From a virus, in the IMG/VR virus record IMGVR_UViG_3300042939_000516, positions 1 through 25,782 of that record: DNA of 25,782 nt. The stretch is one strand, 5' to 3'. How positions within the stretch are numbered: the first letter of the stretch is position 1; every line of letters begins with the position of its first letter. The notes under the pieces are model-generated. The model had not been told where the DNA came from and ran no database searches. It saw only the letters and a program-made list of their open reading frames with translations. Positions 4,194-21,678 of this stretch are shown here, piece by piece. The translations under genes were made by a program, and so were the position numbers.

Positions 4194-5486
4194 TCAGGAC
4201 CGGCTCGCCTGCCGGTGCTCGACCTCGTGCTGGCGGAGCAGCTCGCGCGGGACCGTCCGCCGGATCGCGTCGGCCGCCTGCGTGACGTGCTCGGCCCGGA
4301 CGCCCTGCGGCGGCCGGCAGCAGGCGTAGACGCCGGCGAGCGTCGCGGCCCGGTGGACCGCGACCGGGGCCAGGTCGTACTCGACGTCCGCCCGGACGGG
4401 GCGGCCGGCCACGACATCGACGACGCGGCCCTGGTCGTCGTAGTTCATGACCTCGACGGCCGTCCCGGTGCCGATCCCGGTGAGCGTCACCAGGGCCGGG
4501 GCGTGGGCCTGGAGGCGTCGCTGGCCGCAGACGAAGACGTATGACAGCTCGAGGCCGGTCGCCTGGCAGAACTGCCGCATTGTCCGGCCGGTGCCGTGCA
4601 GATCGACGAACAGCGTCCCCGGGGCGATCCGTTTGACATACGTCAAGAATCCGGCCGACGGCCGGCGGAGCGTCTCGCGGCTGGCCCAGAACTGGCACGT
4701 CTGGTCGGACGGGTAGAGGTGCCCGTAGGCCTCGCCGAGGATGATCGTGTCGCGCGAGACGAACGCCACCCGCTCGGGCCGCGCCGCCTCGACGTACCCG
4801 CGGACGAGCGCGGCCGCCGCCAGGACGAAGGGGACGTTCGCGGCCGCAGCCCCGGCCCACCAGCCGGCCTCGGGAGAGCCGGGCTCGTGCGGATTCTGGA
4901 GCCGGGCCGCGCGGGCCGCCCCGGCAATCTCCCAGATCCCGGCCTCCTCGAGGTCCTTCTCCGCCTTCGTCCACGCCCCGCCCTTGTAGTGGCAAGCCTC
5001 GACGCCGGCCGCCCGGGCCTGGGAGACATCGCTCCGCGGGTTGTCCCCGACGTGGGTCTCGATCTCGCGGGCCGCCTTCGACCGCCAGTACCGGCCGGTC
5101 CACTTGCCATCCCACGAGGCGGCGATGTCGAGCCCGGCGGGGAGGCCGATCTTCTCCGCGAGGGCCTGGACCTGGTCGGCACCGAAGTAGGTGTCGGTCA
5201 CGATCCGGTCGCCTGTCCCGAACCGCCGGACGTTCTCGGCGATCGGGAAGCCGCAGGCCAGTTCGGCCCGCTCCTCGAGGTCCCGCAGCTCGTCGACGCG
5301 GTCCTGGCTCCAGCCGGTGATCTCGCGGAGCGTGTCGAAGATCCCGGGCCAGGTCTTGTCGGACCGCCGCTCGGCCTCCTGGCGGACGGACCGGTACTCC
5401 TCGCCGCCGACGAGGTCGAAGATCCGCCAGGGCTCGCCGCAGCTTCGGCCGTGGAGCGTGTCGAAGTAGTCCCACGACCTCACCAT
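4194..5486 (-). CDS. HAD-superfamily protein of the capsule-cluster type (COG5610-like)
   Basis: A 430-residue protein and the last gene of the late operon. The N-terminal ~175 residues form a HAD hydrolase fold: motif I SWDYFDTL (nucleophile Asp6), motif II VTDTYF (Thr97), a Lys near 137, and motif [11 protein letters not shown] (Asp148, Asp153). The C-terminal half has [11 protein letters not shown] (about 240-250), [11 protein letters not shown] and VDLHGTGRT. This architecture matches two-part HAD proteins found beside glycosyltransferases in surface polysaccharide clusters. It overlaps the upstream GT25-like gene by seven bases, so the two are probably made together. Possible roles are processing a sugar phosphate for virion or host-surface glycosylation; substrate unknown. 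Confidence 0.7.
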
Positions 5487-6103
5487 GTCCGGGCCCCCGC
5501 CTTCTTGTTGGTGATGTCCGAGAGCCCGGCGGCCTGGCCGCAGATCCACGGCCGGACGGCGTAGACGCCGAGCCGCCGCTCGCGGTGCAGGACGCCCATC
5601 CGGTGATCGACGTGATGGCGGCAGGCCCAGGCCGGGCTCGGCTCGATCCAGTCCCGGAGCGTCTCCAGGGCCGCGCGGCCGAGAACCCCGTAGGCGTGGG
5701 TCCGGTTGACGTTCAGCCCGCGGACGAAGTCCACGCGGCCCGGCAGGGCCTCGGGCTTCGTGAGGTGCTGCCCGCCGAGGTAGAGCTGGCCGGTGTCCTC
5801 GGGCGGCGTCAGGGCCGCGAGCCGGGCGGCGAAGTCCCCGACGAACGTGGCGTCGTCCTCGAGGACCAGGATCCGCTCGACGCCCGTGGCGATCGCCCAC
5901 GACAGGACGGCGTAGTGCGACCGGGCGCAGCCCCACGCCCCAGGCTTCGCCTTCCAGCCGGCCGGCGGCGACTCGGCCTGGCCGTCGACTGCCGGCACGA
6001 CCTCGGGCCAGGGCAGGGGCCAGGGCCGCGGCAGGCGGTCCCAGAACGCCGCCAGCCGGTCGGGCCGGCGGGCGAGCGAGATCACGACGACGGCGTCGAA
6101 CAT
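5480..6103 (-). CDS. Glycosyltransferase family 25-like protein
   Basis: A 207-residue glycosyltransferase. The N-terminus [16 protein letters not shown] matches the 'INLxRRxDR' start of LPS biosynthesis family 25 enzymes. Residues about 57-88 carry the family signature: [16 protein letters not shown] followed by [10 protein letters not shown], where EDD is the metal and nucleotide-sugar binding motif. A later YLGGQH and HAYGVLGR agree with the fold. Full-length for a minimal GT25 catalytic domain. It starts 22 bases inside the upstream DUF6378 gene. With the adjacent HAD protein it forms a likely glycan-modifying pair; the acceptor could be a tail protein, host surface glycan, or another molecule. 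Confidence 0.85.
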
Positions 6104-6555
6104 GGCGGCGTCTCCGCGGCCTCGACCTCGGCGAGACAGGCCGCATACCCGGCGAGGTCTACCGGCGTGTCGCTGCTCTTCGCCGCGCCCTGGTGCCGCG
6201 CGAGCTTGTCCAGGATCATGATCTGGGCCCAGTCGGCGACCGTCAGCGGCTCGCGGAGCTTGTGGCCGAAGATCGCGTTCACCGCGGCGACGGTCTTCGC
6301 GAAGTGTTCGCCCGGCGGGCCGTAAGTCGTGCGGCGCTGGCGGATCGTGCGGGTGGCGAGTTCGAGGAGCTGCTCGGCAACGGTCTCTGGTAGCACTGCC
6401 ACGGTGGCCTCCTGGAGATGGCGGATCATGCGGACGAGATGCACGACCCACGAGGCTAGGCTGCCGCTCGTGCCAGTCCACGCCCCCGAAAACCGCCGGG
6501 CCTCCTGCTCCGCGTGGGCGAGCTGCTCGGCGTCGAGCCAGACGGCGGGCCTCAT
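6082..6555 (-). CDS. DUF6378-like phage protein
   Basis: A 157-residue protein. The C-terminal half (about 85-150) has the pattern [11 protein letters not shown], then [15 protein letters not shown] and VDLAGYAAC, which matches the DUF6378 family of phage-encoded helical proteins related in appearance to MazG/nucleotide-pyrophosphohydrolase-like bundles. The N-terminal half is helical with no known domain. The ATG overlaps the phosphoesterase stop (ATGA). A nucleotide-metabolism role is possible but not demonstrated by any visible catalytic EExxE motif. Confidence 0.65.
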
Positions 6556-15777: not shown

Positions 15778-17010
15778 TCAGCTACCGGCCTCGACCAGCT
15801 TCGCCACGAAGGAGGCGTCGTGGTTCGAGACGCCGACCCGCTGGAGGCCGCGGAACTTCACCGCGTCCGACTCGAAGCCGGCGTGCTCGGAGGCCGAGAT
15901 CACAAGCCCGTTCGACTTCACCGCGACGGCGGTCGCCATCGAGAAGTCGCCGTAGAGGGCCAGCGTCCCGGCCGGCAGGCCGAGGCACTTGTAGACCGGG
16001 GCACCCATCACGACCGGGAGGACCCGATCGCCGACGGTCGTCGACTGGGAGACGACCGAGCTCTTCATGATGTGCTCCCAGCCGGCGGAGCTCACGACCC
16101 AGGCCGTGTTCATGGCCCGGCTGTCGATCTTGCCCACGAGCGAGGCGAGGTCCGCCCCGTCGTAGTCGGTGCCCGCCTCGACTTCGTTGCCAGCGTCGAT
16201 CTCGTCGACCAGGCCGTCGATGCCCTTGCCGGCATCACCCTGGAGCCAGACGGTGTCGATCTTCTTCGCGATCGCGAGACCGAACCGGTTCGCGGCGAGC
16301 TGGGCCAGGTTCACGACCGCGGCCGAGTCCTGGATCAGCTCGTTGGAGAACGAGAGGATCCGGCCCATCTTGTAGAGCGGGATCGTGACCTTCGAGGTCG
16401 TGGCCTCGTCCTCGGTCACGGCCTCGTGCTCGTCGAACCACTCGGCGTCGATCTCGCCGATCTTCGGGATCTCGAGCGTGTGGCTCGAGGTCGTGTAGAC
16501 CTGGGCGAGCTGGACGCCGACGGACTGGTAGCCCAGCACGTCGATGTACCCGCGGAAGAGCTCGGGAGAGACGAGCTCGGCACCCTCGCCGTCATAGGTC
16601 GGCGAGGTCTCGCCCATCGCCCGGGCCTCGGCGAAGTCGCCGCGAGCGATCGCCCGCAGGAACCGGCCGGCCCGGACCGCGTCCTCGGTCGTGCCGAAGC
16701 CGCGGAGCGACTTACCCGGCATGACGTGGATCGCGGGGCCCTTCCGCTTCTCGGCCTTCTCGACCGTGGCGCGGCTGTCGCTGTCGCTCGTGGCGGTCAC
16801 GGCCCGCAGCCCGGCGAGCTTGTCGTCGAGAGCCCGCTCGGCGGAGGCGAGCTTCGTCACCTCGTCGGCCCGAGCCATCCGCTCCGTCAGCCGCTCGCCG
16901 ATCTGGGTCGCCTCGGCCTCGTCGGCCGGCGTCAGGGCGCGGAGGTTCTCGATCTCGGTCGTGATCGTCGCGGCCTCGTCCTGGAGGCGCTGGAGCTTGG
17001 CGCTGGGCAT
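15778..17010 (-). CDS. Major capsid protein, HK97 family
   Basis: A 410-residue capsid protein. Residues 1 to about 75 form the coiled-coil delta (scaffold) domain (KLQRLQDEAATITTEIENL, ERLTERMARADEVTKLASAE). The HK97-fold body follows, with SPELFRGYIDVLGYQSVG, TLEIPKIGEIDAEWFDE, VTIPLYKMGRILSFSNELI, and a typical end (GLVISASEHAGFESDAVKFR, VGVSNHDASFVAKL). The start at 17010 was chosen because AAGGAAG precedes it, rather than an ATG 15 codons upstream. The delta domain is expected to be removed by the prohead protease at about residue 80-90. The gene is separated from the protease gene by nine others, which is unusual. Confidence 0.93.
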   Translation of the reverse strand: MPSAKLQRLQDEAATITTEIENLRALTPADEAEATQIGERLTERMARADEVTKLASAERALDDKLAGLRAVTATSDSDSRATVEKAEKRKGPAIHVMPGKSLRGFGTTEDAVRAGRFLRAIARGDFAEARAMGETSPTYDGEGAELVSPELFRGYIDVLGYQSVGVQLAQVYTTSSHTLEIPKIGEIDAEWFDEHEAVTEDEATTSKVTIPLYKMGRILSFSNELIQDSAAVVNLAQLAANRFGLAIAKKIDTVWLQGDAGKGIDGLVDEIDAGNEVEAGTDYDGADLASLVGKIDSRAMNTAWVVSSAGWEHIMKSSVVSQSTTVGDRVLPVVMGAPVYKCLGLPAGTLALYGDFSMATAVAVKSNGLVISASEHAGFESDAVKFRGLQRVGVSNHDASFVAKLVEAGS

Positions 17011-17111
17011 TGGTTCGCTTCCTTGCGTTCGGGTGGTGGTGAAAACCTCCCGCACGATATGGGCGACCGCCCGACCGGCGAAGTTTGGCGTACTACCGTA
17101 GGACGGTCGAC

Positions 17112-17402
17112 CTACTTGGGCTTCCCGGTGACGGCGGCCTGGATCTCGCGCTGGCCGGCCGCCAGCTCCCGCAGCGTCTCGGCCTGCTGCTCCTGGGTCC
17201 GGCCCAGGCCTTCAAGCGTCGCCGTCGTCTGGCGGAGGAAGGTCGCGTGTGACTCGACGACCGGGACGACGACCGTATGGTGTAGGGCCGTCGCCGCCTC
17301 GCGGAGGCCGAGTAGGAGGATGCAGACCATCACGACCGGGAAGCCAAACTCCCGGGCGATCCGGATCCCCACGTCGATCACGTCGCTGGTTTGCTGCGTC
17401 AC
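17112..17402 (-). CDS. Single-pass membrane protein, holin or spanin-like candidate
   Basis: A 96-residue protein with a GTG start overlapping the previous stop (GTGA). A hydrophobic helix (FGFPVVMVCILLLGL, about 18-33) is followed by a long heptad-like helix (ESHATFLRQTTATLEGLG, TQEQQAETLRELAAGQREI). One membrane anchor plus a coiled coil fits a holin, XhlA-like or spanin-like lysis accessory, or a structural membrane anchor. Position in a cassette of membrane proteins and proteases favours a lysis-related role, but no family was recognised. Confidence 0.6.
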   Translation of the reverse strand: MTQQTSDVIDVGIRIAREFGFPVVMVCILLLGLREAATALHHTVVVPVVESHATFLRQTTATLEGLGRTQEQQAETLRELAAGQREIQAAVTGKPK

Positions 17403-17704
17403 TTGTTGCTCTCCCACCACTTCCGGACCAATGCCTCGACGATCGCGGCGATCGCCCACCAGAGGATGATCGTCGTGAAGGCGAACCCGCACCGCTCGCG
17501 GTATTCGCGGCGGACCTTCTCCTCGAGGTCCAGGCGGACCAGCCGCTCTCCGTCGGTGCCGCGGCCGGCGGCGAGCAGCTCGCCGGCGGGCGGCATCTTG
17601 TCGGCGGCCACCGCGGCGATCGCGTCGGACCGCTCGCGGCCGAGGAGGGCCCGGCGGACCGGGTAGGCCGCGAGGGCCTGCCAGACGTAGTCGGCGTCGT
17701 TCAT
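17399..17704 (-). CDS. C-tail-anchored small membrane protein
   Basis: A 101-residue protein overlapping the protease stop (ATGA). The N-terminal ~65 residues are soluble and helical (DYVWQALAAYPVRRALLG, DLEEKVRREYRERCG), and residues about 72-92 form a membrane helix (FAFTTIILWWAIAAIVEALV) followed by KWWESNK. This tail-anchored layout is uncommon for holins. No family recognised. Confidence 0.6.
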   Translation of the reverse strand: MNDADYVWQALAAYPVRRALLGRERSDAIAAVAADKMPPAGELLAAGRGTDGERLVRLDLEEKVRREYRERCGFAFTTIILWWAIAAIVEALVRKWWESNK

Positions 17705-18435
17705 CGGCGGACGCATCTCCCGTCGAGGCAGGCCTTCGCCAGGACCGAGCGGATCTCGACGACGTGGCTCCCGGCCGTCAGGCCGTGCGACGATCCCCAG
17801 AGGATCCCGGCCAGCTCGCCCGACTCGGTGAAGATCGGACCGCCCGAGTCGCCCTGGCGGGCGGCCGCGCGGACCTCGACCATATGGGCGGGATGCCGGC
17901 CGGCCGGGGAGAGGAACTGGGTCACCGGGCCCGAGGCCTCGCGGTAGACGAACGGCGCGCCGCCGTAGCCGGCGATCGTCAGCCGGTCGCCGACAGCGGG
18001 GGCCTTGGCTGCGAGCTGCACCGGCGCGGCCTTGGGCGTCGGCGTCGACAGGACCGCGAGGTCGAAGGCGTCGTCGCTGGCGACGACCTTCGCGGCGGCG
18101 GTCGTGCCGTCGGGCCACCGGATCGTAATCGCGTCGCGGTGGCCGCGGACGACGTGCCAGGCCGTGAGCACGACCGCCCGGCCGCCACCGGCGTCGACCA
18201 GGACCCCGGAGCCGCAGTCCCTCGACGGCCCGGCCCCGCACTCGATCCGCGGGACCGCCGGCCTGGGGCCGCCGGCGGCGCGGGCCGGCTTGTCGGGCAC
18301 GACGCCCGAGCCATCGCAGACCGGGCAGGAGAACCGGACCGGGCCCGGCCCGACGACGCGGTCGCCGCGGCAGTTGTCGCACGGAGCGGCCGCGGCAGAG
18401 GCGGCGAGCAGGATCGCCAGGAGGATCGGTCGCAT
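17701..18435 (-). CDS. Secreted trypsin-like serine protease with CxxC zinc-finger-like N-terminus
   Basis: A 244-residue protein. Residues 1-17 form a clear signal peptide (RPILLAILLAASAAAA). The mature N-terminus has two CxxC pairs (Cys19/22 and Cys37/40, the second as CPVCDGSG), like a DnaJ-type zinc-binding unit. The S1/DegP-like protease domain has the full triad: His94 in LTAWHVV, Asp125 in AFDLAVL, and Ser197 in GDSGGP. Two further cysteines flank the end. It should act outside the cytoplasm. It starts two bases after the papain-like gene's stop and overlaps the next gene by ATGA. An exported phage-encoded trypsin-like protease in a structural operon is unusual; host-envelope degradation or virion maturation are both possible. 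Confidence 0.88.
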   Translation of the reverse strand: MRPILLAILLAASAAAAPCDNCRGDRVVGPGPVRFSCPVCDGSGVVPDKPARAAGGPRPAVPRIECGAGPSRDCGSGVLVDAGGGRAVVLTAWHVVRGHRDAITIRWPDGTTAAAKVVASDDAFDLAVLSTPTPKAAPVQLAAKAPAVGDRLTIAGYGGAPFVYREASGPVTQFLSPAGRHPAHMVEVRAAARQGDSGGPIFTESGELAGILWGSSHGLTAGSHVVEIRSVLAKACLDGRCVRR

Positions 18436-18437
18436 GG

Positions 18438-19310
18438 TCACCCGGCGGGCCGGCTCCAGTCGTCGGGGAGGGTCATGGACGCGATGGCGAACGAGCCCCG
18501 CCAGGCGGACCGGGCGGTTCGCTCGGAGTCGTAGCGGACGATGTCGTACGAGTCCGGGTACGCCATGAGTCGCTCGCCCGGGATCCACCGGGCCCAGGGC
18601 ACGGCGTGGCCGTTGCGGCCCACGCTCACGACCAGGCCGGCGAGGACGCAGCACACCGCCTGCTCGTAGGACTCGGGGAAGATCACCTCGAGCGGCCGGA
18701 ACCAGGCGGCCGTCTCCTGCCAGCCGTCGGGGAAGGCGGAGACCGGCGTCCACCGGCCGCTCGCCTGGTTCAGCCCGCCCGCGCCGGTCGTGCCGGGCAG
18801 GGCGTGTCGGAAGGCGTAGTCGTGCGGCTGGACCGTCTCGGGCAGCATCCCGCGGCGGACCGCGATCTCGAGGACCTGGCGGACGTTCGCGCCGCCCCAC
18901 TGCCGCGGGTTCGCCTCGGCGTAGACCGATAGCGGCGAGAGCCAGACCGAGCCGGCCTGGCCGCTCTCGGCGTAGCGGTAGTCGTCCGTCGGGCCGTCGG
19001 CGTAGATCACGCCGCGGGCCCGGTTGCGGGCGGCCTCGGCGTTCGCCCGCAGACTGTGGCAGGTACACTCGTGGGTCGGGTTCTGGTTCGTGAACCGGTC
19101 GAGGTAGTTCATCGCCCACGATCCGGCCGCGTCGTTCTCGCGGGCCTTCGCCTCCCAGTCTCGCGGCTCGACCCAGAGGGCCGCCGGGAACTCCCGCGAG
19201 GCGGAGCCGCAGGCGTCGCGGAGGGCGTCGGTCGTGTCCTCCGCGGCCAGCTCGGCCGGGTAGCCGTCGTGCTCGGCGGGGAACACGTCGACGAGGCGCG
19301 GGTCGATCAT
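18438..19310 (-). CDS. Probable papain-like (C1-type) cysteine peptidase
   Basis: A 290-residue protein. The segment TNQNPTHECTCHSLRANAE places Gln76 six residues before Cys82, the same spacing as the oxyanion Gln19 and nucleophile Cys25 of papain. GRNGHAVPWARW gives a candidate catalytic His235, and Asp253 (YPDSYD) lies 18 residues later, where papain has Asn175. Between them are helices and Gly/Trp-rich loops as in the fold. No signal peptide is visible. A neighbouring cysteine (Cys84) leaves the exact nucleophile uncertain. It could be inactive or a transglutaminase-like relative. The start at 19310 overlaps the previous stop and uses the same 17-base initiation sequence as the gene at 2719. 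Confidence 0.65.
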   Translation of the reverse strand: MIDPRLVDVFPAEHDGYPAELAAEDTTDALRDACGSASREFPAALWVEPRDWEAKARENDAAGSWAMNYLDRFTNQNPTHECTCHSLRANAEAARNRARGVIYADGPTDDYRYAESGQAGSVWLSPLSVYAEANPRQWGGANVRQVLEIAVRRGMLPETVQPHDYAFRHALPGTTGAGGLNQASGRWTPVSAFPDGWQETAAWFRPLEVIFPESYEQAVCCVLAGLVVSVGRNGHAVPWARWIPGERLMAYPDSYDIVRYDSERTARSAWRGSFAIASMTLPDDWSRPAG

Positions 19311-19681
19311 GGCACGGCCTCCAGCACGGCGGCCTCGGTCGCCGGGGCCGGCGTCACCCGGAGGACCGTCTGGCCGGCCAGGGCGACAACGGCCGGGAGC
19401 CCGGCCTTGCGGGCGGCCGCCAGGGCGAGCCGGTACTGGTCGGGAACGTCGCCGATCCCGTCGGTCGTGTCCGCCTCGAGCAGCGTCGCCACGATCTTCC
19501 GCTCGCGGTTCAGCCGGTTGATCGCCACGGTCACGAACGCCGGCACGGCGTGGGCGTCCTTCTCATAGACGTAGACCGCCGCGGTGGCCGGGCCCGCCGT
19601 GGTGACGTGCCGGCACGACTCGACGTGCGGGAAGCCGAAGATCAGCACCAGCCCGGCGACGACGAGGGCGAGCGGCTTCAC
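19307..19681 (-). CDS. Exported or membrane-anchored small protein
   Basis: A 124-residue protein with an N-terminal hydrophobic segment (PLALVVAGLVLIFGF) followed by a Cys in VESC, near but not matching a lipobox. The rest alternates beta strand and helix (AAVYVYEKDAHAVPAFV, YRLALAAARKAGLPAVVALA, TVLRVTP), which resembles a thioredoxin-like fold without a CxxC. Exported location is likely. Function unknown. Confidence 0.6.
   Translation of the reverse strand: MKPLALVVAGLVLIFGFPHVESCRHVTTAGPATAAVYVYEKDAHAVPAFVTVAINRLNRERKIVATLLEADTTDGIGDVPDQYRLALAAARKAGLPAVVALAGQTVLRVTPAPATEAAVLEAVP
19308..19324 (-). repeat. Shared 17-base initiation sequence, copy 2
   Basis: Identical to 2717-2733 (CTGGAGGCCGTGCCATG leftward); here it also encodes the last residues (LEAVP) of the upstream gene while serving as ribosome binding site and start of the papain-like gene. 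Confidence 0.6.
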
Positions 19682-19920
19682 GGCTTTGGGGCCTCCGGCT
19701 GGAGCAGCTCGTCGAGGAGCTTCTGGCAGACGACGACGGCCGAGGCCTTGCCCTGGTCACGGAGCCGGGCGGCGAGGTCGATCACGAGGCGGAGGTCGTC
19801 GACCGGCGTCCGGACCCGCCGGCGGCCGACGTAGGTCCGGGCTTGCTGGACGACGAGGACCAGGGCGTACCCGAGGCAGGCGACGCCGGCGGCGTATTGG
19901 ACGACTTGGGAAACGGTCAC
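19678..19920 (-). CDS. Small N-terminally anchored membrane protein
   Basis: An 80-residue protein with a GTG start at 19920 overlapping the previous stop (GTGA). An apparent longer frame upstream is the shadow of the 88-residue gene. Residues about 4-24 form a membrane helix (SQVVQYAAGVACLGYALVLV). A basic patch (RTYVGRRRVRTP) and a helix (LRLVIDLAARLRDQG) follow. No family recognised; a small holin-like or anchor role is possible. Confidence 0.6.
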   Translation of the reverse strand: MTVSQVVQYAAGVACLGYALVLVVQQARTYVGRRRVRTPVDDLRLVIDLAARLRDQGKASAVVVCQKLLDELLQPEAPKP

Positions 19921-20183
19921 GGGGTTTTCTCCATAGAGGCGACGAGCTGCACGATCCGCTGGACGAGGGCCGCGCCTTCCGGCGTCTTGAGGACGGCCGC
20001 GACGTGGCGGGCCAGGTCGTCGTCGAGCCGGCTCTCGGTCCGCGACGCCGCCCACTCGAGCGCGTCGGCGACGATCACCGACCGGGCGTTGGCGTTCGGC
20101 TCGGCCGAGTAGCGTCGCGCGTATCCGAGCAGGGGAGACCACTCGGCGAGGAGCCGGATCTGCTCGATGGTCGGGAGGGGCAT
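19917..20183 (-). CDS. Small helical hypothetical protein
   Basis: An 88-residue, probably all-helical protein (IEQIRLLAEWSPLLGYARR, ARSVIVADALEWAAS, ALVQRIVQLVASME). No membrane segment and no recognised domain. Tightly linked on both sides, two bases from the previous stop and overlapping the next start. Confidence 0.6.
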   Translation of the reverse strand: MPLPTIEQIRLLAEWSPLLGYARRYSAEPNANARSVIVADALEWAASRTESRLDDDLARHVAAVLKTPEGAALVQRIVQLVASMEKTP

Positions 20184-20184
20184 G

Positions 20185-20553
20185 TCACCGCCTCACGAGC
20201 CAGAGGAGTTGCTCGATCGCCCCGGATGCCAGGGCCAGGACGAGGGACCGCACGGCGGGCCGGGCGACGACCCAGACCGGCAGGGCCACGAGCGGGACGG
20301 CCCGGTCGGCCACCGCGTCGAAGAGGTCGCCGACCGACTGGAGGGCGAGGGCCTTCTTCTGCTCGCCGGTCATGGTCGAGACCGTGTCGAGGATCGTCAC
20401 GACCAGCCGCAGGAGGCCGACCATGAGCTCGCCGAACTCGGCCCAGGTCAGGCCGTCGGCGGTCGTGTTCCTGGCGGTGGCGACATACGCGGAGATCTTG
20501 TCGAGGAGGCCGAGGCTATTGTCGGCGGCGGCGAGCGGGACGGCGGTGATCAT
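20185..20553 (-). CDS. Helical, possibly membrane-associated protein
   Basis: A 122-residue protein. The ATG at 20553 overlaps the stop of the zinc-ribbon gene (ATGA) and follows GGAGGAGG. It has helical segments (LLDKISAYVATA, LMVGLLRLVVTILDTVSTM) and a hydrophobic C-terminal part (VPLVALPVWVVARPAVRSLV, LASGAIEQLLWLVRR) that may associate with the membrane. No family recognised. First large member of the protease/membrane cassette. Confidence 0.6.
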   Translation of the reverse strand: MITAVPLAAADNSLGLLDKISAYVATARNTTADGLTWAEFGELMVGLLRLVVTILDTVSTMTGEQKKALALQSVGDLFDAVADRAVPLVALPVWVVARPAVRSLVLALASGAIEQLLWLVRR

Positions 20554-20705
20554 TTGACCCTCCTCCAGACGTGGTTCGCTGGGACGACCTGGCGGCCCCG
20601 AGCGCGGCAGCATTGGCAGGCGACGTAGCGGACCTGGCGGTCGCCGGCCCGCTTCGACGATTCAACGCGGCAGCGGCCGCCGCACTTCGAGCAGCTAGCC
20701 GGCAT
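20550..20705 (-). CDS. Small zinc-ribbon protein
   Basis: A 51-residue protein. Two CxxC pairs, Cys5/Cys8 (CSKC) and Cys30/Cys33 (CQCC), frame a basic beta-hairpin (CRVESSKR, RQVRYVAC), as in a zinc ribbon. Small phage zinc ribbons (for example Ogr/Delta type) often regulate late transcription or bind nucleic acid, but no specific family is claimed. Its ATG at 20705 lies inside the end of the prohead protease-HAD gene (11-base overlap) and its stop overlaps the next start. Its size and overlap make it easy to miss. Confidence 0.7.
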   Translation of the reverse strand: MPASCSKCGGRCRVESSKRAGDRQVRYVACQCCRARGRQVVPANHVWRRVK

Positions 20706-21678
20706 GGATCCGCATCCTCGCGACGGCGGCCGCCGCCGCGGCGCGGACGCCGGCGAGCGACGAGACCTTGACCGCTCGCGGCTCGGGGGCCGCGGCCGGG
20801 ATCTTCTCGGGCGAGTCGTCGATCCAGATGTCGACGGAGAGACCGGCGGCCTCGGCGGCCGACCGCTTCTGCGTGTCCGGCCCGCACAGGAGGACGCCGG
20901 CGAGCTCCTCGTAGAGGTCGCCGAACGCGAGCCGCAGCTCGTGCCGGTTCGCCTCGGTGTCCTGCCGGCGGGTGATGCAGACGACGCGGTTCCCGCGGGC
21001 GGTCGCGTCGGTGACGAACGACCGCCAGAGGCCCGGGGCCGCGGTGAACGTGCCGTCGAAGTCGAGGGAGATCGTCAGACCGCGCGGCTCGGCCCGGTGC
21101 GCCACCATGCCGCGGGCCTGCCGCCAGGCGTCGAGGGATCGCGGGGCGATCGAGCTCGACGGGTAAGCCGGGCTCGTGACCGCGGAGATGTCGTAGAGGC
21201 CCGAGGCCTTGTGGACCGTGCGAATCACGTTCCCCCGCTCGTCCTCGGTCCAGTTCTCGCCGCCGTCGGCGACCGTGAACGCGAACGACGAGCCGGTGAT
21301 CGTGCGATCCTCGACCATCATGATCAGGTCGCGGCCCATGCTGGTCTGTAGCGGCTTGTGCCGGTAGGCCAGGCCGCGGGCATCCTTCGCGAGCTCGAGG
21401 CGGCCGTTCGAGGTCCGGCCCGTGACGTGGTTCGGGTCGTGATTGAACAGGAACGGCACGTCGATCTTCCCGCGCGGGTCGGTCGGCTTGCGGTCGACCA
21501 GGCCGTCGAAGGCGGTCGGGGCGAACTTCTCGCGGAATCCGCCGAGGTCGACCGAGAGCGAATCCCACGGGGGCGAGATCCCGACCAGCACGGCCTCGGC
21601 GTCGCCGTCGCGACGCTCGACCGTGATCGCGTCGGGCGTGTCGTTCGTCAGGAGGTAGCGGCGTTCGATCTGCGTCAT
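20695..21678 (-). CDS. Prohead protease (S78) fused to a HAD-superfamily domain
   Basis: A 327-residue two-domain protein. Residues 1 to about 180 are an HK97-type prohead protease: LFNHD.NHVTGRT (His80), TITGSSFAF (Ser130/131) and YDISAVTSPAYP (Asp163 region). Residues about 200-295 form a HAD phosphatase-like domain: SLDFDGTFT (Asp206 and Asp208), VVCITRR (Thr236), Lys271, and WIDDSPE (Asp287, Asp288). All four HAD motifs are present, so it may be active. The protease should cut the capsid delta domain. Fusion to a HAD domain is not part of the usual family layout. There is no stop or frameshift between the two. Met191 offers a possible internal start but has only a weak ribosome binding site. 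Confidence 0.88.
   Translation of the reverse strand: MTQIERRYLLTNDTPDAITVERRDGDAEAVLVGISPPWDSLSVDLGGFREKFAPTAFDGLVDRKPTDPRGKIDVPFLFNHDPNHVTGRTSNGRLELAKDARGLAYRHKPLQTSMGRDLIMMVEDRTITGSSFAFTVADGGENWTEDERGNVIRTVHKASGLYDISAVTSPAYPSSSIAPRSLDAWRQARGMVAHRAEPRGLTISLDFDGTFTAAPGLWRSFVTDATARGNRVVCITRRQDTEANRHELRLAFGDLYEELAGVLLCGPDTQKRSAAEAAGLSVDIWIDDSPEKIPAAAPEPRAVKVSSLAGVRAAAAAAVARMRIHAG

Follow-up and report, generated by a model that had tools for sequence, protein, structure and literature searches.

A swappable protease-bearing cassette between the prohead protease and capsid genes of Planctomycete phages and its probable role in host lysis

The IMG/VR virus record IMGVR_UViG_3300042939_000516 comprises a 25,782-bp virus fragment of about 70% G+C, analysed here over its full length and referred to as the window. 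It encodes a small and a large terminase, a lambda-independent HK97-type portal, an S78 prohead protease, a capsid protein, a tape-measure-like protein and an integrase. Between the S78 and capsid genes lies cassette A (hel1, hel2, mem80, exp124, papA, S1, mem101 and mem96), which we propose is probably a late host-lysis module using proteases instead of an endolysin. The basis of this reading is that such cassettes are obligate, mutually exclusive and cleanly swapped, that they share a papain-like core and that no peptidoglycan hydrolase was detected. The lysis role is argued largely by elimination, since genes for packaging, head, tail, integration and replication are accounted for and those for lysis are not; wall protein as the exact substrate is less certain than the role itself. 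Only tentatively, as a serious possibility, do we extend the proposal to Planctomycete phages at large, which would lyse their hosts by proteolytic modules of two or more types, unrelated by BLAST and housed in one slot, because the load-bearing wall is disulfide-rich protein and not peptidoglycan.

Nine minus-strand open reading frames (ORFs) fill the 3.6 kb between the S78 gene (stop at 20695) and the capsid gene (ATG at 17010 or GTG at 17055), and neighbouring ORFs overlap or abut, mostly with a 4-nt overlap. A sequence-only reading of the window had described nine coupled genes between prohead protease and capsid, and these are confirmed; the interval is not the unique insertion that it had supposed but one allele of a swappable slot, which in near-identical relatives holds cassette B. 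This second cassette, a five-gene block of about 2.2 kb first met after hel1 in the second of the phages on contig G013, has the order B184 (a transmembrane (TM) segment and an extracytoplasmic part), papB, B86 (TM), B85 (Transgly_assoc-like, with three TM segments) and B108 (Cys-rich). A search with papB gave 591 stretches, 590 of them confirmed relatives, and many window-like (type I, see below) phages hold cassette B in the S78–capsid slot. Contig G013 (L095–L099; 77,375 bp), a single IMG/VR record, apparently contains two phages that differ in their cassette (A in one, B in the other), and seems to represent tandem prophages or a chimeric assembly.

In four relatives (L286, L288, L291 and L297) both flanks match the window at about 86–95% nucleotide identity, the match breaking off where hel1 ends, at 20191, and restarting at 17104/17105 (past mem96); in L286, L288 and L291 cassette B occupies the stretch between these breakpoints. 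From these breakpoints, the minus-strand segment 17105–20190, which carries the seven genes from hel2 to mem96, is swapped as a unit, and near-identical phages have cassette B in its place. The extent given in the sequence-only reading needs a corresponding revision: its nine genes are present, but the zinc ribbon is better placed with the head module, both cassettes have hel1 in common and the exchange unit has seven genes. In a further relative (L258) the identity is about 0.95 in the portal and S78 genes and 0.7–0.8 in the zinc ribbon and hel1, after which the match ends; since identity drops before the end of the match, hel1 may itself be exchanged or be diverging with the cassette.

Retrieval through hel1 yielded 72 new loci, which resemble the window most closely among 552 matches and leave distant types undersampled: 44 carry cassette B, 21 carry A, two carry a partial B and five end right after hel1. 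None of these 72 loci showed both cassettes together, or neither. Using the capsid gene, which lies outside the block, as the query gave 80 window-type loci, of which 58 have B, ten a partial B and six A, and six are cut off at the capsid gene. Cassette A or B is present in all loci with upstream sequence (74 of 74), and the slot is filled wherever both S78 and capsid are visible (37 of 37). An accessory moron is unlikely, as no empty slot was seen among the capsid-retrieved loci; more generally, no relative devoid of a cassette was found among the loci examined. Both cassettes appear from their sequences to centre on a papain-like cysteine protease with small membrane or exported proteins, to which A adds S1 and a cysteine-free thioredoxin fold. 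They are best read as alternative solutions to one task that swap as units.

Relatives of cassette A were collected from viral contigs, 12 through the window S1 and 113 through papA, of which 80 were kept. They share an eight-gene block in the fixed order hel1-hel2-mem80-exp124-papA-S1-mem101-mem96. With contig ends controlled, all 61 loci have S1 downstream of papA, 60 have mem101 and 57 have mem96; on the upstream side, all 48 loci contain hel2 and exp124, and 46 contain hel1 and mem80. As the loci were retrieved through papA, these figures show the cohesion of the block and not its frequency. Chance ORFs are ruled out by the gene order and catalytic residues kept in dozens of diverged relatives, and a one-off insertion peculiar to this phage by the relatives that carry the block. 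Three genome types were defined here from gene order. In type I (window-like) genomes block A separates S78, with or without the zinc ribbon, from the capsid gene; in type II (G002, G007, G008 and the first half of G013), with a lambda-type portal and a gpA-type terminase, it lies between the head and tail genes; and in type III (G003 and G005) it follows the tail genes near the integrase end. The block is not tied to HK97 heads, since it is present in at least these three genome types, including phages with a lambda-type portal and gpA terminase. Some loci contain inserted ORFs: one resembling a DNA methyltransferase (DPPY motif) between exp124 and papA (L018, 625–1966; L022, 434–1709), with an equal-sized gap at the same site in L020 and L086, and one of homing-endonuclease type (HNH/NUMOD) between papA and S1 (L010, 3886–4493; also L011–L013).

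The papA gene (18438–19310, minus strand) encodes a 290-residue candidate papain-like cysteine protease with no signal peptide or TM segment, and is the most conserved member of cassette A (73–85% identity for most relatives). The papain-like motif noted in the sequence-only reading is confirmed by Gln76, Cys82 and His235, which are invariant across 32 sequences; the position of the Asn is uncertain and is perhaps taken by the likewise invariant Asp253. The Gln–Cys spacing of six, the Ser four residues after the Cys and the Glu ten residues after it agree with the pattern of papain. No sequence match was found in Pfam, PHROG or the PDB (the last in a profile search with alignment A1), and the AlphaFold2 model is poor, with a predicted local distance difference test score (pLDDT) of 35. 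The cassette B protein papB (381 residues) has an N-terminal TM segment and a papain C1 signature, in which Gln100, Cys106 (the same spacing of six), His272 and Asn304-Ser-Trp-Gly are invariant in alignments A8 and A12; judged by sequence, its catalytic residues have the order and spacing of C1 papains. A PDB profile search with the narrower alignment A8 gave no related protease, while with the broader A12 the best matches include papain-family enzymes with their catalytic residues aligned (E 0.02–0.3). Neither protein matches any Pfam family, Peptidase_C1, NlpC/P60 and CHAP included, and neither has a match among 50,697 GenBank phages. Common descent of the two is unproven, since neither BLASTP nor hhalign detects homology between them.

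The S1 gene (17701–18435, minus strand) encodes the secreted trypsin-like protease with a full triad proposed in the sequence-only reading. The 244-residue product has a predicted signal peptide, a CxxC..CxxC zinc-ribbon-like segment and a Trypsin_2 domain (E 3.4e-22), with the triad His94/Asp125/Ser197 invariant across 37 sequences, and its profile identifies it as a true S1-clan protease. The nearest solved structures are a mycobacterial membrane-associated serine protease and DegS/DegQ/HtrA; S1 matches no PDZ family and is too short to hold a PDZ domain, and is not classed as an HtrA protease. A CxC/CxxC-rich zinc-ribbon-like segment occurs in an exported or membrane protein of both cassettes, at the N-terminus of S1 (window 18300–18380) and in B108 (L097, 16255–16581), and perhaps reflects a shared wall-binding or redox theme.

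Among the ORFs of the interval only S1 has a significant Pfam match (Trypsin_2), and the other eight have no significant match in Pfam or PHROG. The first of the cassette A genes, hel1 (20185–20553, minus strand, as are all that follow), encodes 122 residues with two moderately hydrophobic helical segments, is the single gene common to both cassettes and may be a holin candidate, although searches of Pfam and PHROG gave no match. The exchange unit begins with hel2 (19917–20183), a soluble helical protein of 88 residues with no TM segment that is kept in 76 of 89 loci mapped. Three small membrane proteins, the minimum claimed in the sequence-only reading, are present, each with a single TM segment: mem80 (19678–19920; 80 residues), in which it is N-terminal; mem101 (17399–17704), in which it is C-terminal and suggests a tail-anchored topology; and mem96 (17112–17402), in which alignment and TM prediction indicate an N-terminal segment followed by a Q-rich helical coiled-coil-like tail. 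The last topology may be spanin-like or holin-like, and a PHROG holin match of mem96 lies below threshold (E 0.19). The exported protein of the earlier description, exp124 (19307–19681), has the N-terminal hydrophobic anchor or signal segment expected of it and can now be described further from AlphaFold2, Foldseek and alignment. The model (mean pLDDT 84) indicates a thioredoxin fold, the best Foldseek PDB matches all being thioredoxin-like (E about 5e-3), and the redox-active CxxC is found in none of 31 aligned sequences.

The hosts are Planctomycetes, and prophages of the cassette B type lie in chromosomal contigs. The single strong genome match of papA is a 40-kb contig binned in a Planctomycetaceae metagenome-assembled genome. 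The papB family is found in four of 294 genomes drawn from the Planctomycete phylum and in 25 of 347 from the order of G137, in contigs of up to 6.4 Mb. Three of these genomes (G137, G395 and G400) share the gene order hel1-like, B184-like, papB-like, B86-like, a signal-peptide thioredoxin with CPYC, terminase and portal, and the thioredoxin gene near papB in chromosomal prophages has its CxxC (CPYC, CRYC or CPHC). At the position of B108, chromosomal prophages carry a fusion protein that begins B108-like and continues as a thioredoxin with an active CxxC (L384, 10928–11488; L383, 6738–7256; L381, 6135–6704). The papB match in L387 has no terminase within the stretch read, and the matches need not all be intact prophages. 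In L388 (9784–10842), a prophage in a genome (G336) that contains a penicillin-binding protein (PBP), the papB-like gene lies just after the capsid gene and not before it.

YTV wall repeats are present in all 27 carriers tested and in none of 14 control genomes. Four of the 27 carriers have the PBP transpeptidase domain (PF00905); across the host order, 46 of 347 genomes have it and 87% lack it, so the order is mostly without PBP transpeptidases and the carriers are not special within it. A preference of carriers for PBP-less hosts is unsupported, PF00905 being absent from 22 of 25 matching members of the order and from 301 of its 347 genomes. Planctomycetales have been described as having Cys-rich YTV wall proteins and as having lost most peptidoglycan-synthesis genes (PMC8567305).

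The sequence-only reading had seen no peptidoglycan-cutting enzyme in the window. This holds in Pfam scans for the scanned window proteins, for cassettes A and B and for a complete relative. Two relatives are complete by terminal repeats, G001 (30,250 bp, 127-bp repeat) and G011 (31,912 bp, 123-bp repeat). For the remaining genes of G001 no wall hydrolase is among the best 25 of 29 Pfam families, the others being weaker than E 0.006; the matches listed are to terminase, metallophosphoesterase, HNH and HTH families and others of that sort. In 13 relatives, some 110 other gene families likewise show no peptidoglycan hydrolase among the Pfam matches listed. PHROG scans of the complete genomes, considered for the best 25 of 92 and 25 of 108 families, are weak negative evidence. 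Genes were taken from our own gene caller, with gaps inspected by eye in G001 and G011. No holin–endolysin pair was found in the loci examined. PADLOC returned generic protease-domain matches of S1 alone and no specific defence-system gene, which rules out a defence island. The suggestion in the sequence-only reading of a protein-degrading lysis or envelope system suited to a protein-rich envelope is supported in part, by the obligate presence and swapping of the cassettes, the absent hydrolase and hosts rich in YTV and poor in PBPs.

Judging by the overlapping genes, the common strand and the lack of a separate orientation, the cassette genes would be expressed along with the late structural genes. 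Permeabilization or rearrangement of the inner membrane may fall to hel1 and the small TM proteins. From its predicted topology papA, which lacks an export signal, might leave through the membrane lesion like a canonical endolysin, and papB would be held by its N-terminal membrane anchor, as are signal-anchor endolysins; S1 would be exported by its predicted signal peptide. Together papA and S1 could break down the cross-linked protein layer in the Planctomycete envelope, and the thioredoxin-fold and Cys-rich parts might act on disulfide-rich wall proteins or bind them.

Several points weigh against a proteolytic lysis module. Lack of PBPs is common throughout the host order with no enrichment among carriers, and some carriers (such as G336) have a PBP; biochemical work has reported peptidoglycan in several Planctomycetes, with lysozyme-sensitive sacculi (PMC4432640), and one Planctomycete phage is reported to exit the host cell non-lytically (PMC10945688). 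Profile searches can miss divergent endolysins, and above threshold no cassette gene resembles a known holin or spanin in Pfam or PHROG. The papain-fold assignment of papA comes from motif spacing and conservation. A module adjoining the capsid gene could also serve assembly or entry. Entry or virion functions, with the proteins packaged or acting in assembly as extra maturation proteases, or ejected to digest the envelope, would suit the type I phages, where the block stands between the genes for the maturation protease and the capsid, and a host whose protein wall must be digested at entry too. We nevertheless hold them to be distinctly unlikely, given that block A is also found elsewhere in the genome and in phages whose heads are unrelated, that signal peptides or TM anchors, unusual for virion proteins, are present in several members, and that maturation is already supplied by S78.

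The proteases might instead remove or modify proteins on the surface of the infected cell or lysogen, as late envelope remodelling or superinfection exclusion and not as a lysis trigger. Exported and anchored proteases with small membrane proteins would suit such surface editing, exclusion systems commonly have swappable alleles, and the block of the type III phages (G003 and G005) is found close to the integrase end. Yet every window-type phage examined carries a cassette, unlike accessory genes, the cassette overlaps late structural genes and forms no opposite-strand unit of its own, and the phage would be left without any lysis function; we judge this explanation unlikely. More doubtful still is a conventional holin–endolysin set in disguise, with papA and papB as very diverged papain-fold peptidoglycan hydrolases of the NlpC/P60 or CHAP kind. 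Many cell-wall hydrolases are found among papain-like folds (PMC10318531), the topologies of papA and papB parallel those of soluble and signal-anchor endolysins, and the reported lysozyme-sensitive sacculi would offer a substrate in some Planctomycetes (PMC4432640). Against this, papB carries the protein-cutting C1 signature (Gln, Cys, His and Asn-Ser-Trp-Gly) and PDB searches with its profile tend towards C1 proteases, no NlpC/P60 or CHAP match was found in Pfam, a trypsin-like protease adjoins papA and PBP transpeptidases are absent from most genomes of the host order.

The slot is flanked upstream, outside the cassette, by the S78 prohead protease (20695–21678, minus strand; Peptidase_S78, E 1.1e-32) and downstream by the HK97-type major capsid protein (15778–17055, minus strand, with the alternative ATG start at 17010; Phage_capsid, E 2e-22). 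The S78 protein has a C-terminal HAD-like extension, which matches phrog_4919/4256 over residues 201–305 and from its sequence reads like a HAD-type phosphatase or kinase domain (DFDGT motif); a protease–HAD fusion within a head gene is odd. The 51-residue C4 zinc-ribbon-like protein ZnR (20550–20705, minus strand) stands beside cassette A or B in window-type phages, and is assigned to the S78/head module because it also follows S78 in cassette B phages. Between the metallophosphoesterase and integrase genes (window 4194–6555) lie genes for a large HAD-like protein, a glycosyltransferase-like protein and a third protein, whose PHROG relatives are named phosphofructokinase and whose Pfam relatives in sister phages resemble dATP/dGTP diphosphohydrolases.

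The module is real, widespread and, to judge by our searches, undescribed (no earlier description of these cassettes was found in the literature), with lysis as its likely function. How phages escape from bacteria with a possibly mainly protein wall is a question for which we found no answer in the literature. A module that is always present, in two protease-based versions and with no recognizable peptidoglycan hydrolase, is independent evidence on the host barrier. The dependence of Planctomycetes on peptidoglycan or protein walls is disputed (PMC8567305 versus PMC4432640), and the module makes the question testable with single enzymes. The cassette may also be a source of enzymes for opening Planctomycete cells and, if the proposal is true, protease-based lysis would be a strategy new for tailed phages.

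The cassette resembles the holin–endolysin–spanin cassettes of tailed phages in being a late-operon block of small membrane proteins and one or two hydrolases, with enzymes that lack an export signal or are N-terminally anchored, and in being exchangeable as a unit and apparently obligatory. It differs in its papain-like and trypsin-like proteases, in the extra thioredoxin-fold protein and in having no recognized holin or spanin family; it is not filed with the holin–endolysin cassettes because the peptidoglycan hydrolase that defines them was not found. With C1 cysteine peptidases (silicatein, 2vhs; a bacterial enzyme, 3ois; Legionella Lpg2622, 6a0n) papB shares Gln-6-Cys, His and Asn-Ser-Trp-Gly, and papA shares Gln-6-Cys and His, with an Asp possibly standing for the Asn. 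Unlike those enzymes both are phage-encoded and have no Peptidase_C1 match, their resemblance to solved C1 structures is at best marginal, and papB is membrane-anchored. S1 has the Trypsin_2 domain, full triad and predicted export of HtrA/DegS-like and mycobacterial membrane-associated (3k6z) proteases, from which it differs in the lack of a detected PDZ domain, in the zinc-ribbon-like segment at its front and in being a phage late gene. A phage-derived metzincin/TIMP-like pair of Listeria (PMC8235301) also offers a secreted protease of phage origin linked to lysis sensitivity; the Listeria enzyme is a metalloprotease from a remnant locus and is reported to sensitize cells to lysins, whereas the proteases of the cassettes described here would replace them.

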